33,860 nt of DNA from Acidimicrobiia bacterium (lineage in GTDB: Bacteria; Actinomycetota; Acidimicrobiia; Acidimicrobiales; Acidimicrobilacustridaceae): assembly GCA_020832495.1 (NCBI GenBank), contig JAFIEP010000020.1, positions 1 to 33,860 on the forward strand. Reading direction: 5' to 3'. Positions 15,669-22,341 of this stretch are shown here, piece after piece. The notes beneath the pieces are model-generated. The model was not told the DNA's origin. It was given only the letters and a program-made list of their open reading frames with translations, and made no database searches. A program made the translations under genes and the position numbers. The first letter of the stretch is position 1, and each line of letters starts with the position of its first letter.

Positions 15669-16048
15669 CCCGCCCGACTGGCGCTCCGTTCGCACTGCTC
15701 CGATCCCAACTCGAACTCGTTGGCCACGCCGACGACGTGCGCAGGCCGGTGCCCACGGACAACTGACGTGACCGGAGGTCGGCGACGCCGGACCGACGTG
15801 CTCGTTGCCCCCGAGGACAAGCGTATCGGTGGCGATGTGCGGCCGTCGGTCGACCCCGCAGACCCCGCGTCGACGACGCAGCTGATCCCCGGCGTTCCTC
15901 GGGCCCACCTGTCGGATTCGAGCGAACAGATCCGATTCGCCCGAGCCAGCCGGACTGCCCGACCGCCGGCTCACCCAGGAGACTGCAAGCTCACCCAGGA
16001 CGCTGCCCAGCTACGCTCACGGTGTCGCTGCGTCCTGGGAGCATGCTC
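15669..16048. other. Divergent intergenic region between acyltransferase and PD40-SLH genes
   Basis: About 380 bp hold no convincing gene. TACGCT on the minus strand near 15822 could promote the acyltransferase with a long leader. On the plus strand, TACGCT at 16012-16017 precedes the PD40-SLH gene. Confidence 0.4.
15969..16000 (+). repeat. Two 12-bp direct repeats in helical phase before the PD40-SLH promoter
   Basis: GCTCACCCAGGA occurs at 15969-15980 and again at 15989-16000. The similarity continues as CTGCnnGCT-like sequence, giving a 20-bp period (about two helical turns). The second copy covers the expected -35 region of the TACGCT box at 16012-16017, so a regulator dimer or an unusual sigma could bind here. 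Confidence 0.5.
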
Positions 16049-17953
16049 GTGAACCGGTCCGTCACCACTTCGCCTCGCCACCAGCCTGTCCGCTCCGGGC
16101 GAGGCCGCCGTCGAGCGCTGGTGGCCGTCGCCGCGCTGCTGGCAGCACTCGTCCCCGTGTCCGGGGTATCGGCCGACGGCTCGCCGTCCACCACGAGGGT
16201 GTCGGTGGCCTCCGACGGCACCGAAGCGAACGACCGAGCCTTCTCACCGTCGATCTCGGCAGACGGACGGTGGGCGGCGTTCTCCTCGCCAGCCACCAAC
16301 CTGGTGCCCGACGACACGAACGACGTCAGCGACGTGTTCGTGCACGACCTGCACTCCGGCAGCACCGAACGGATCTCCGTGGCCTCCGACGGAAGTGAGG
16401 GCGATGCCACCTCGGCCGGTAGCTCGCTGTCGGCAGACGGGCGGTACGTGGCGTTCACCTCGTTCGCCACCAATCTGGTGCCCGACGTCACGAACGACGT
16501 ACAGGACGTCTACGTCCGCGACCGGGTCGCCGGCACCACCGAGCGGGTCTCGGTCGCGTCCACCGGGGCGGAGGCCGACGGCGTGAGCACCGCGGCAACC
16601 ATCTCGGCGAACGGACGCTTCGTGACCTTCGCCTCGGATGCCACGAACCTGGTGCCCGACGACACCAACGACGCACGCGACGTGTTCGTGCACGACCGGA
16701 TGACCGGCGACACCGAACGGGTCTCGGTGGCCACCGATGGCGCCGAGGCGAACGGCACCTCCACCCGTCCGTCGCTGTCGGCCAACGGCCGCTACGTGAC
16801 CTTCGACTCCGAAGCCACCAACTTGGTGCCCGGCGACACCAACGACGCACGCGACGTGTTCGTGCACGACCGGTCGACCGGGACGACCGAACGGGTCTCG
16901 CTGGCACACGACGGGTCCGAGGCTGACGACACGAGTTCCAACGCGTCGATCTCGCCCAGTGGCCGCCACATCGCCTTCTCGTCGCCGGCAACGAACCTGG
17001 TGCCGGGCGACACCAACGACGAATGGGACGTGTTCGTCCACGACCGCAAGGACGGATCGATCGAGCGGGTGTCGGTGGCCACCGACGGCACCGAGGCGAA
17101 CGGCGGCTCGGGTGGTGCCTCGATCGGAGCCGGCGGACGGCACGTGTCGTTCCACACCACCGCCACCAACCTCGCCCCCGGGACAACTGGCGAGGACAAC
17201 CACGTGCTCGTCCGAGACCGGCGCGACGCCACGACCGAGGTGGTCTCGGTGGCCCTCGGCGGCTCGGGAGGCAACAGCGCCTCCCAGGCGTCGTCGCTGA
17301 CGCCGAGAGGGCGGTTCGTGACCTTCCTCTCCTTCGCGTCGGATCTGGTGGCCGGGGACACCAACGACACCTGGGATTCGTTCGTGCGGGACCGTGGACC
17401 GCAGTGCGTCACGGGGTTCGGCGACGTCGCCCCACTGCACCAGTTCTGTGCCGAGATCGAGTGGATGGTGGCCGAAGGCATCACCACCGGCTTCGACGAC
17501 GACACCTTCCGACCCACTGCGCAGCTCAGTCGCATGGCCATGGCCGCCTTCTTGTACCGCGCTGCGGGCGAGCCGGCCGTGACCCTTCCCGCCGAACCCA
17601 CCTTCGACGACGTCGACGCGGCCCACCCCTTCCGCACCGAGATCGAGTGGATGGTGGCCGAAGGGATCACCACCGGCTTCGACGACGACACCTTCCGACC
17701 CACCGCACCGCTGAGCCGCATGGCCATGGCGGCGTTCCTGCACCGCTCGATGGGCGAACCAGCCGTGACCGTGCCGTCACCGGTGACGTTCGCCGACGTC
17801 GACGACGCCCATCCCTTCGTGGTCCCCATCGAATGGATGGTGTTCGAAGGCATCACCACTGGCTTCGACGACGACACCTTCCGGCCGGCCAACCCGCTCA
17901 GCCGCCAAGCCATGGCGGCCTTCCTCGAACGCGCCGACGACGTCGTGCTCTAG
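16049..17953 (+). CDS. Secreted PD40/TolB-like seven-repeat propeller with three SLH-like repeats
   Basis: The protein has 634 residues from a GTG at 16049, chosen because GGGAG lies 7 nt upstream; a GTG at 16022 and an ATG at 16043 are in frame. The signal peptide is RRRALVAVAALLAALVPVSG with cleavage near VSA-DG. Seven repeats of about 57 residues follow, each of the form (T/I)E(R)VSVA(S/T)DGxEAN...SxSxxGR(Y/F)V(A/T)F.S.ATNLVPxDTND..DVFVHDR. This is the WD40-like PD40 pattern and would close one seven-bladed propeller. The last 160 residues are three SLH-like repeats, each carrying IEWMV.EGITTGFDDDTFRP and SR.AMAAFL. It probably sits on the cell surface as a binding or scaffold protein. No enzyme motif is seen. 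The gene converges with the DJ-1 gene, their stop codons overlapping in CTAG (17950-17953). Confidence 0.87.
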   Translation: MNRSVTTSPRHQPVRSGRGRRRALVAVAALLAALVPVSGVSADGSPSTTRVSVASDGTEANDRAFSPSISADGRWAAFSSPATNLVPDDTNDVSDVFVHDLHSGSTERISVASDGSEGDATSAGSSLSADGRYVAFTSFATNLVPDVTNDVQDVYVRDRVAGTTERVSVASTGAEADGVSTAATISANGRFVTFASDATNLVPDDTNDARDVFVHDRMTGDTERVSVATDGAEANGTSTRPSLSANGRYVTFDSEATNLVPGDTNDARDVFVHDRSTGTTERVSLAHDGSEADDTSSNASISPSGRHIAFSSPATNLVPGDTNDEWDVFVHDRKDGSIERVSVATDGTEANGGSGGASIGAGGRHVSFHTTATNLAPGTTGEDNHVLVRDRRDATTEVVSVALGGSGGNSASQASSLTPRGRFVTFLSFASDLVAGDTNDTWDSFVRDRGPQCVTGFGDVAPLHQFCAEIEWMVAEGITTGFDDDTFRPTAQLSRMAMAAFLYRAAGEPAVTLPAEPTFDDVDAAHPFRTEIEWMVAEGITTGFDDDTFRPTAPLSRMAMAAFLHRSMGEPAVTVPSPVTFADVDDAHPFVVPIEWMVFEGITTGFDDDTFRPANPLSRQAMAAFLERADDVVL

Positions 17954-18587: not shown

Positions 18588-20303
18588 TCAGCCCCCGGTC
18601 GGGCAGCGGGATGAACGGCCGGGCGTCGGTTGCACGTCGTACACGCCGGTGGCTTCACCGTCGTCGTCGAGCGCCACAAGGGCCATCGAGCCGATGGTGG
18701 GCACGTCGTCGGGGTCCACCAGCACGTGGAAGAACGAGGGTCGCTCGGCGATGTGGGCTGCGGCGCGCGGCCATGGCGTCAGCACCGGCGAGGCACCCAC
18801 CAGCACCCCGTCGACCACCAGCCCGACGTAGGTGTCCGGCGTCGGTGGCGGACCGTCGAGGTGACCCGACAACGCCACGTCCCAGCCGCAGCTCCCCCGA
18901 CTCGAGCCGACGACGTCGTCGAGCGCGTCGACGTACGCCACCCCGGCGTCCGCCAGCGCCTCTCCGCCCGATCCCCCACCGAGGACCTCTGACGACCACG
19001 CAGTCCCGAGCCGGTCGCCGATGGCCGTAGGTAAACCGGCTCGGATGGCGCGCGCCGCCAGGCCGTCCCACCCGGGCCCCGGCCGCACCTCGCCGCTGAC
19101 CTCGCGGCGGGCCGACTCGTCCACGGGGCCGAAGTTCAGCGGGGCGCCCTCCTCGTAGGGCCACTCGTCGGTGACCACCACGCGCTCGTGGCCACCCACG
19201 TCGTCGGGCAGGGCCACGCCGGCCGCCTCGGCGATGATCGGCAGCAGTTCGGTGGCCGTGCGAGGCTCGTCGACCACCCGACCCGCCCGCTGTCCGGGTT
19301 CCTTGACGAACATCGGCACCCAGACCAGCTCTCGATGGTTGTCGTCGAGGATGTCGCGGGTGTTGCGGCTGGCTCCGAGTTCGATGCCGTGGTCGGCGGT
19401 GACGATGACCAACGCCTCGTCCCACTCGCCGCGCGCCTCGATGGCATCCATCCACTGCCCGACCACCACGTCGGTGTAGCCGAGCTGCCAGAGGTACTCG
19501 ATGCGTCCGGCCGTCTCGGAGAACCACGGGTCGGGCGCCCAGCGCGACCCCAGGTTCGGCGGGTCGTCGATCCCGTAGCGGGTGCCGTCGGGCAACCACT
19601 GCCACGGGGTGTGCGGGAACAACAGGTGGACCACGTGCAGCGTGGCCTGAGGCCAGTCGCCCTCGAGGAGCTCGACCTCGAAGGCCTCGTACACCTCGTG
19701 GGCCTGCCGCTCCTCGACCTCGGGGTAGGGCAGCCGGTCGGGACACAGCTCCGGGCGGCACAGCCACGAGTTGTGCTCGGCTCCGTGGATGGCCCATCCG
19801 GCGTCGGCCAGCAGGTCGAACGCGTTGGAGGGGTACTCCTCGGGGGTGGCCAGCGCGTTGCGGGGCAGGACACCGCTCAGCATGGCCGGCACGGAGTGGA
19901 TGGTGCGCCCCGAGTGGATGGTCCAGTTCGTGTACCAGGTGGATCTGGACGCCAGCTCGGCGAAGCGGGGGAAGCGAGTCGAGTTGAGCGCGCCGTCGTG
20001 CAGCAGGTCGACGAGCGACACCTCGTCGAGCACCAGGACGTACACGGGAGCCGGTCCGTCGACGGGCACGGGTGGCGGGTCGAGCGCCACGGTGTCGGTG
20101 ATCGTGGTGTCCGTGGGGACGACCGGATCCTCGGGACCGGGTGGGTCGGCCGACTCGGACGATCCTGCGCAGCCTGCTGCCACCACGGCGAGCACCAAGA
20201 GAGCGCCCAGCAGGTGCCCGAGTCGTGTCCGGTGAGCGGCGCGGCGGGCGTGGCGGGTTCCACCCTGACGTGTGCCGGCGACGGAGGTCGGGGGAGCCCA
20301 CAT
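18588..20303 (-). CDS. Sulfatase-like (alkaline-phosphatase superfamily) lipoprotein
   Basis: The protein has 571 residues from an ATG at 20303; TAACCT lies 10 nt before it. The signal peptide LLGALLVLAVVAAGC ends in a lipobox Cys45, so the enzyme should be anchored outside. Landmarks of the sulfatase/phosphoglycerol-transferase fold are YVLVLDEVSLVDLL with metal-ligand Asp93, GRTIHSVPAMLSG with candidate nucleophile Thr134, HVVHLLFPHTPWQWLPDG (His226, His231) and IVTADHGIELG (Asp304, His305). There is no CxPxR formylglycine motif, so a Thr-nucleophile transferase or phosphohydrolase is more likely than a true sulfatase. The last 170 residues are a less conserved beta-rich domain. Acting on surface glycopolymers would fit the neighbouring acyltransferase, but this is inference. 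Confidence 0.82.
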   Translation of the reverse strand: MWAPPTSVAGTRQGGTRHARRAAHRTRLGHLLGALLVLAVVAAGCAGSSESADPPGPEDPVVPTDTTITDTVALDPPPVPVDGPAPVYVLVLDEVSLVDLLHDGALNSTRFPRFAELASRSTWYTNWTIHSGRTIHSVPAMLSGVLPRNALATPEEYPSNAFDLLADAGWAIHGAEHNSWLCRPELCPDRLPYPEVEERQAHEVYEAFEVELLEGDWPQATLHVVHLLFPHTPWQWLPDGTRYGIDDPPNLGSRWAPDPWFSETAGRIEYLWQLGYTDVVVGQWMDAIEARGEWDEALVIVTADHGIELGASRNTRDILDDNHRELVWVPMFVKEPGQRAGRVVDEPRTATELLPIIAEAAGVALPDDVGGHERVVVTDEWPYEEGAPLNFGPVDESARREVSGEVRPGPGWDGLAARAIRAGLPTAIGDRLGTAWSSEVLGGGSGGEALADAGVAYVDALDDVVGSSRGSCGWDVALSGHLDGPPPTPDTYVGLVVDGVLVGASPVLTPWPRAAAHIAERPSFFHVLVDPDDVPTIGSMALVALDDDGEATGVYDVQPTPGRSSRCPTGG

Positions 20304-20540
20304 GGTGGCCGGCAGGTTAGCGGCGAGGGGTCGTCGAACCACGGCGGGCCCGACAGCTGGAGGTCGCTCGCTGCGGCTGCCGTGATGCGGCATGGATCGA
20401 GATCGCGACGCTCGTGACCAGGGGCTGAACCCACCCGAGGGTCGCCATCTTCGAGCGGCCGTTCGCCGGCTGCGATCACCTGGTAAATGAAGCTAATCGC
20501 CGCATGTCGCTTCTCGCTGCCCGGTCGATACCCTGAGTAG
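20304..20540. promoter_or_regulatory. Divergent promoter region of the sulfatase-like and Tat-propeller genes
   Basis: On the minus strand TAACCT (20314-20319) is a -10 candidate 10 nt before the ATG at 20303. On the plus strand TACCCT (20529-20534) ends 6 nt before the ATG at 20541 with no ribosome site, predicting a leaderless mRNA. The remaining 200 bp hold no gene that I can support. Confidence 0.5.
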
Positions 20541-21377
20541 ATGTCCCCCCCGAATCGCCGCACGTTCATCCTCGGCGCCACGGCGGTCACCGGGGCGGCG
20601 TGGGTCACCCCGATGGTGTGGTCGACACCCGCTGCGGCACAGGCGACCCTCCCGGGTGCCACCTGGGTGACGGTCGGCAACCAGACCGGCCAGACCTCGG
20701 TGCTGCGGACGTCGACCGAACCGTTGACGACGTGGACCGTCGCCAATCCGACCGCCACCGCGCCACTGACCGGCGTGGCCAGCAACGGCGTCCGCTGGGT
20801 CACGGTCAGCTCCGGCGGCGTCATCCGCACCACGGCCACGCCAACCGATCCCACCAGTTGGGTGGCCCCGACGACGGCAACGAACGCGCTGGCGGACGTG
20901 GCCGCCGGCGGCGGTCGTTGGGTGGCCGTCGGCTCCCAAGGCGTCCTGCGCACGACGCTCGACGCCACCCACGGGTGGACAGCAGCCAACATCGCCGGCG
21001 GTGGCAGCCTCAACGGTGTGGCCACCGACGGCTCCCGGTGGGCGGTGGTCGCCGACAACGGTGTCATCCGCACCACCACCACACCGCAGACCGACACGAG
21101 CTGGACCACCAACACCACGTCGGATACTGCCCTGAACGCGGTGACCTTCGGAGGCGGCCGATGGATGGCCGTGGGGAACGGCGGACGTGTTCGCACCGCG
21201 ACCGACGCCACACAGACCTGGGCCACCGCCAACATCGCCGGGCTGACCACAGCGGTCAACGACGTGGCCACCGACGGGACACGGTGGGTGGTGGTGGGCA
21301 ACAGCGGACTCATCCGCACCACACTCACCCCGACCGACACCGGGAGTTGGGTGGTTGTGGGCCCCGGTCCTGGATAA
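20541..21377 (+). CDS. Tat-exported YCF48-like propeller protein, ended by an in-frame TAA
   Basis: The protein has 278 residues from an ATG at 20541, with a leaderless-type box upstream. The N-terminus NRRTFILGATAVTGAAWVTP is a twin-arginine signal, cleaved near PAAAQA. Six repeats of about 38-41 residues follow, with the core LxxVAxxGxRWVxVGxxGxIRTTxxPTDxxSW, like YCF48/sialidase-type propeller blades. The frame stops at TAA (21375-21377), but the same frame continues without interruption for 50 more codons that encode a perfect seventh repeat. Seven is the number needed to close the ring, so this product should be an unfinished propeller unless the stop is read through, is a sequencing error, or is a recent nonsense mutation. 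The function of the intact protein is unknown; it would be a folded secreted protein. Confidence 0.8.
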   Translation: MSPPNRRTFILGATAVTGAAWVTPMVWSTPAAAQATLPGATWVTVGNQTGQTSVLRTSTEPLTTWTVANPTATAPLTGVASNGVRWVTVSSGGVIRTTATPTDPTSWVAPTTATNALADVAAGGGRWVAVGSQGVLRTTLDATHGWTAANIAGGGSLNGVATDGSRWAVVADNGVIRTTTTPQTDTSWTTNTTSDTALNAVTFGGGRWMAVGNGGRVRTATDATQTWATANIAGLTTAVNDVATDGTRWVVVGNSGLIRTTLTPTDTGSWVVVGPGPG

Positions 21378-21530
21378 GGGGCGCTCCAGGGCGTCGCCAC
21401 CGACGGTGTGGCCTGGGTGGCGGTCGGCGACGGCGGGCAGATCCGGGCCACCACCACTCCGGCGGCGGCCGGGAGCTGGACCATCGTGACGAACGCGTCG
21501 TCGACGCTCCGAGCCATCGCCGCGCTGTAG
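21378..21530 (+). pseudogene. Severed seventh blade of the Tat-exported propeller
   Basis: This segment is directly in frame after the TAA at 21375-21377. It encodes GALQGVATDGVAWVAVGDGG, then QIRATTTPAAAGSWTIV, and finishes LRAIAAL before TAG at 21528-21530. It matches the six preceding repeats position by position and has no start codon or ribosome site of its own. The linker around the stop (between SW of repeat 6 and L of repeat 7) is 11 codons including the stop, where the complete repeats have 9, so a small insertion may have introduced it. Confidence 0.75.
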
Positions 21531-21659
21531 AGGGCGCGTCACGTGGCGTCCGGTACCGGCCCGGAAGTGGCCGGGGCGGGGCGGTTCGACGGAAGGTCGT
21601 CCGAGGAGCGAACCGGCCACGTCCGGTGAGCGAGCGGCGTCGGCTGCCCGGCCGGTCGG

Positions 21660-21665
21660 TAGCGT
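21660..21665 (+). promoter_or_regulatory. -10 box for a leaderless TetR transcript
   Basis: TAGCGT is followed by 7 nt and the GTG at 21673. This favours 21673 over the GTG at 21664, which overlaps the box. The gap 21531-21659 shows nothing else. Confidence 0.45.
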
Positions 21666-21672
21666 GAGGGAC

Positions 21673-22341
21673 GTGCCCGACCTCGAGCAACGACGAGAGG
21701 ATGCCGCTCGACCCGAGCGGCGCGGTCGGGGCCGACCCACCGGCAGCGACACCATGGCCACCCGCGCCGCCATAATGCAGGCGGCCAGGCGGCTGTTCGC
21801 CCAGTCCGGCTACCGCGGTGTGTCCATGGATGCCGTGGCGCGAGCCAGCAACGTCGACCCCAGGACGATCCACTACCACTTCGGTTCCAAGCGCGGCGTG
21901 TTCGACGCCGCCACCGAGCAGGCCCTGCAGCGCTTCGCCACCGAGGTCGACCGGCTGGTGTTCTGCCACCGGTCACTGCCCGCCCGCCTGGACGGCTACA
22001 TCGAGGTGTTCCGGACGTTGTACGACGAGGATCCGACGCTCGTGGCCCTCATCGGTGTCCTCTTGGTCGAATCCCTGGCGCCACCCGACGATCCAGCGGG
22101 TCCGCCATCCAACGCCACCGGCGAACACCTCCGGACGCTCATCGAGGTCGTCGTCGACGATGGCATTGCCCGAGGCGAGGTGCGCGACGGCGTCGACCGC
22201 AACGGGGCCGTCGAACTGCTCCGCGCCATCGGCATGGGCCTGGCGCTGGCCCCCCTCGAGGAGCCCTCCGCCTACCCGGCGTTGCTCGACGTGCTCGGGT
22301 CGCTGGTGCACGGCGAGCTGTTCAGCGCGACCACGGACTGA
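21673..22341 (+). CDS. TetR/AcrR family transcriptional regulator
   Basis: The protein has 222 residues from a GTG at 21673. The N-terminal helix-turn-helix is typical: TRAAIMQAARRLFAQSGYRG, then VSMDAVARASNVDPRTIHYH and FGSKRGVFDAA. The ligand domain (about 90-222) is helical and varied, with LPARLDGYIEVFRTLYDEDP and an ending LLDVLGSLVHGELF. A basic, Arg/Gly-rich N-terminal arm (ERRGRGRPTG) would contact the minor groove. It is encoded alone: the propeller gene lies upstream on the same strand, and a long hairpin then the hydrolase gene on the other strand follow. The target genes cannot be deduced, but repression of itself or a nearby gene is usual. Confidence 0.92.
   Translation: MPDLEQRREDAARPERRGRGRPTGSDTMATRAAIMQAARRLFAQSGYRGVSMDAVARASNVDPRTIHYHFGSKRGVFDAATEQALQRFATEVDRLVFCHRSLPARLDGYIEVFRTLYDEDPTLVALIGVLLVESLAPPDDPAGPPSNATGEHLRTLIEVVVDDGIARGEVRDGVDRNGAVELLRAIGMGLALAPLEEPSAYPALLDVLGSLVHGELFSATTD

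Follow-up and report, generated by a model that had tools for sequence, protein, structure and literature searches.

An in-frame TAA inside blade six of a probable seven-bladed, Tat-exported propeller gene in an Acidimicrobiia draft genome

The interrupted reading frame and its continuation

The stretch of DNA analysed here, hereafter the window, comprises 33,860 nucleotides of a contig from an Acidimicrobiia bacterium. It carries a gene whose product is probably a divergent Asp-box/Ycf48-like propeller with seven blades, exported by the Tat route. The reading frame of this gene is interrupted by a TAA codon, and the features at the locus are as follows.

20541..21377, plus strand: open reading frame of 278 aa, from the ATG at 20541 to the TAA, encoding a putative twin-arginine signal, blades one to five in full and the first three strands of blade six
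20553..20645, plus strand: predicted twin-arginine signal peptide with RR at residues 6-7, a module common to relatives (E 4.5e-15)
21375..21377, plus strand: in-frame TAA, codon 279, inside blade six between the third and fourth strands
21378..21527, plus strand: 50 in-frame sense codons for the fourth strand of blade six, the whole of blade seven and LRAIAAL, the strand that closes the ring
21528..21530, plus strand: TAG that immediately follows the closing strand and was probably the gene's original stop; in the complete relatives, too, only a few residues at most separate this strand from the stop

The 50 codons beyond the TAA genuinely encode a further stretch of the repeat. When the 50 residues were aligned locally to the upstream propeller they scored 124, a value reached by none of 2000 shuffles (maximum 70), and the five other frames scored only 24-35 in the same alignment. 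A search of the same genome also recovers this stretch as a repeat (E 5.2e-8, 45% identity). The third codon position is G or C in 47/50 codons after the stop versus 240/278 before it. Open frames after a stop are common in this genome: among the 83 genes, this one included, that are not overlapped by an accepted gene, 44 have at least 40 open codons after the stop. Thus, it is the repeat similarity, and not the open frame, that counts as evidence. The shuffle test and the same-genome search bear out the initial annotation, which had noted a further in-frame repeat after the TAA at 21375-21377, ending in its own TAG.

We took the blade register from complete relatives, in which each blade runs through strands b, c, d and then a. 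Five whole blades and three strands lie upstream of the TAA in this register, and one strand and blade seven are lost. The read-through frame holds seven blades of 38-44 residues, followed by LRAIAAL and the TAG. The initial annotation had counted six repeats before the stop and a seventh after it; the seventh repeat stands, but the stop does not fall between repeats, as it lies inside blade six in the register of the relatives. The same annotation had singled out a linker two codons longer at the stop. This proved not to be an anomaly. With the stop counted as one residue, blade six is 43 residues long, within the range of 38 to 44 over the seven blades. Judged by eye, the W-to-V spacing at the stop equals the spacing in blade five and exceeds by two that of blades two, four and seven.

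Family, blade number and predicted fold

Asp-box/BNR and Ycf48-like propellers (PF02012, PF14870; PDB 5ojr, 2xbg) are alike to the product in fold and in sequence profile. A profile of the family alignment searched against the PDB finds Ycf48-like chains, the best at E 6.8e-17, and the BNR/Asp-box profile matches four of five members of the alignment. The window protein itself gave no BNR (PF02012) match among the families listed up to E 1. The SxDxGxTW motif is present in the relatives but is lost in the window copy. The window copy is a divergent member of the family by descent only.

The predicted signal peptide scores 15.6 bits against the Pfam TAT_signal family, below the cut-off of 22.7; its RR motif is common to the relatives. 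The signal module (20553-20645) has a conserved AWVAPxVxSxPAAA core and is attached to differing mature parts. It has six matches in the same genome at E up to 0.01 (C84:26808-26900, C101, C17, C116), and occurs in 7/37 genomes of the taxonomic family at E up to 0.001, one of which (G028) has 12 matches. Four of the mature parts behind the module were read, and two of those from the same genome are not propellers.

Relatives of the propeller were found in 4/37 genomes of the same taxonomic family, the same genome included, with best identities of 33-41% in that search, and the closest homologues of the window protein are 31-41% identical. Blade counts were made for five complete Tat-type relatives (L007, L008, L084, L005 and L086) and for an SLH-fused paralogue (L002), leaving aside other proteins that bear the same signal peptide. 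Three of the five Tat-type relatives, L007 and L084 (both G026) and L008 (G027), have seven regular blades in a single ORF. The SLH-fused paralogue (C121), from the same genome as the window, has seven blades and a closing strand and is 37% identical over part of its length to the window copy. Unlike the window copy, it has no Tat signal that we could see, carries three S-layer-like repeats in front (by eye) and has no internal stop. In every seven-bladed relative, no more than a few residues separate the closing strand from the end of the chain. The two remaining Tat-type relatives depart from this pattern. L086 (G026), judged by eye, begins with an irregular part, which is followed by six clear blade motifs and a strand at the end. 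L005 (G027) is complete with five nearly identical blades and ends in the closing strand LFGVGH; seven blades are therefore not obligatory in the family. The gene for L005 (1462-2322, minus strand), which shares its genome with that for the seven-bladed L008, has a median blade identity of 76%; either the assembly has collapsed there or the ring truly has five blades. A further relative, L006 (G028), is cut by a contig end within the propeller.

The median identity among blades of the window copy is 42% (range 32-57%). By this divergence, the gene encodes an established propeller rather than a freshly amplified ring. We also note a neighbouring gene in the window (16022-17953) in which a propeller-type match (PD40) occurs together with three stretches of S-layer homology, a combination that may be compared with the S-layer/propeller fusion of L002.

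Structure models were built from four sequences. The model of the read-through frame has 28 strands (pLDDT 69.2, pTM 0.74), and its best Foldseek match is 7bid, a seven-bladed designer protein, to which residues 40-329 of the model align with a Z of 32.1 and an rmsd of 2.2 over 271 aligned positions (VIA-align). The model thus agrees with a predicted ring of seven four-stranded blades with strand closure. Together with the blade counts of the relatives, it upholds the earlier suggestion that the seventh repeat and, with LRAIAAL, the strand that closes the ring lie beyond the stop. The model of the short product (pLDDT 62.5, pTM 0.70) falls below pLDDT 50 at residues 262-278. Its propeller listing contains 22 strands, and a weak strand at the end brings the total to 23, the strand of the signal peptide excluded. 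This model is still propeller-like and matches 5ojr best (TM 0.59 by query length). The models are consistent with a seven-bladed design, and by themselves they do not prove that the short form would fail.

The blade counts also bear on whether the 278-residue product could be a functional shortened propeller, with the downstream blade as a relic. Blade number does vary in the family, as the five blades of L005 indicate. By analogy, the short product may not be useless, since stable homo-oligomers have been obtained from fragments of other propellers with one to six blades (PMC6805158). Yet L005 ends with a closing strand, whereas the window product is one strand short of a whole sixth blade, and the downstream blade shows no decay in either GC3 or repeat similarity. 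We consider a working short form improbable.

Termination at the TAA and reliability of the sequence

None of the 28 other homologue matches listed from a search of 395 genomes of the class has an internal stop, although two of the 28 reach only the signal peptide and its surroundings. The same holds for all 21 matches listed from a search of 397 genomes of the order, a list that overlaps with that of the class. Scoring in both searches was restricted to the five best candidates of each genome, which leaves room for misses, and the homologues are all distant. With the protein as query, the order search gave matches in 3/397 genomes (best five candidates per genome) and a contig search confirmed no locus; a contig search with the alignment as query gave nine distant loci.

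UAA is read by both RF1 and RF2. The genes for both factors (prfA and prfB) are present in the genome, with scores above the curated cut-offs. The stops of 145 reference ORFs are TGA in 125, TAG in 19 and TAA in one, and the single TAA ends a complete enoyl-CoA hydratase (profile positions 2-249 of 251). The presence of RF1 and RF2 and the use of TAA to end this complete enzyme rule out that TAA is a sense codon in this genome. The long open frame after the TAA of the enoyl-CoA hydratase is a different gene, not a continuation.

Programmed or tolerated readthrough of the TAA, by which a small amount of full-length, seven-bladed protein would be made alongside the short form, would fit with the frame, the blade count and the closing strand all being kept beyond the stop. 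The base after the TAA is not U, and UAAU has been described as the most efficient stop signal in bacteria (PMC5289835). A predicted RNA stem (within 21378-21477) starts five bases after the stop and has an energy of −62 kcal/mol (z −2.14; 7/200 shuffles as low), an energy matched by only 1/500 control coding windows. However, a z-score as low was found in 28/500 of the control windows; the stem is unremarkable by this measure, and its raw energy reflects the high G+C. Readthrough also has against it the presence of both release factors above their cut-offs, the TAA that ends the complete hydratase, and the fact that all other homologue matches listed are free of internal stops. Nothing speaks positively for recoding, and we regard readthrough as even less probable than a working short form. 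The least probable of all the proposals is a leaky TAA, perhaps aided by the stem, that would yield two exported forms, an open one of five and three-quarter blades and a closed seven-bladed one, with the efficiency of termination setting the blade count. A scan of 20300-21800 for terminators and promoters returned no sites, which is close to chance expectation. An Rfam scan of the window gave one match only, the tRNA gene at 480-553.

The TAA could also be an error of the draft consensus, caused by a wrong base call, by strain mixing or by a compensating pair of indels, in which case the cell would have an intact seven-bladed gene. The draft genome consists of 147 contigs, and its contamination is estimated at 1.52. 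Repeats are hard to assemble, and L006 ends at a contig end inside its propeller. Against a reference of 12 genes, the codons around the stop looked suspicious, with a GC3 dip to 4/9 codons at 21351-21377 and better codons in the +1 frame. This signal is ordinary when 145 genes are used instead: GC3 is as low in 303/58171 nine-codon windows, from 66/145 genes, and the +1-frame value over ten codons is reached in 635/57881 windows, from 82/145 genes. Thus, a compensating frameshift pair around the stop is unsupported. The frame is kept on both sides of the stop, so a single indel is no explanation either. We judge a consensus error to be unlikely on balance, though it deserves more weight than a functional short form or readthrough.

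Origin of the stop and comparison with disrupted propellers

Our preferred explanation, to which we assign a probability of roughly 60%, is that a recent lesion has put a TAA in blade six of a seven-bladed propeller gene and that the short product is probably unstable or inactive. The lesion would have arisen recently in the lineage or strain. Termination at the TAA would then leave a protein of five and three-quarter blades. The strand that closes the ring would be missing from such a protein, and for this reason the product would probably be unstable or inactive. The downstream 50 codons would be a remnant in which decay has not yet begun. The rarity of TAA as a terminator here (1/145 reference ORFs) supports a lesion. 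We infer a real lesion, as opposed to an error of the consensus, as well as its recent date and the failure of the short product to work. A real lesion is preferred over a consensus error since the frame is intact and none of the other signs of trouble looked for at this spot of the contig was seen.

The initial annotation had held that mutation, assembly error and programmed readthrough were all possible. The first two are now favoured and the third is not, given that the other listed homologues lack an internal stop, that TAA is used for termination in the normal way and that no distinctive stimulatory element was found. The cause is most likely of an ordinary kind, and nothing suggests a new way of reading genes.

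The locus should be annotated as a seven-bladed propeller gene that is interrupted, and not as a gene for a 278-residue protein of six repeats. A full-length product, if found, would mean that a G+C-rich bacterium puts TAA to an unusual use. If the stop is real and fixed, the gene would add to the known examples of propeller turnover, in this instance in a ring that has diverged and is not freshly amplified. Work on disrupted beta-propellers with blades beyond an in-frame stop has reportedly come from the Pereira and Lupas group. Propellers disrupted by frameshifts and in-frame stops have already been published, with 428 fragments (HHsearch probability above 70%) near 320 propellers (PMC9218822). 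In an example from Verrucomicrobia, the seventh blade and the closing part lie beyond an in-frame stop; the paper also states that sequencing errors cannot be discarded for such cases (PMC9218822). Like these cases, the window copy has a propeller ORF with an early end and additional blades immediately after it. It differs in its blade identity, as the published set is limited to propellers with a median above 60% and the window copy, at 42%, falls outside of it. It differs also in kind from the two worked examples of the paper, which involve deletions or frameshifts, whereas the frame of the window copy is unchanged (PMC9218822).
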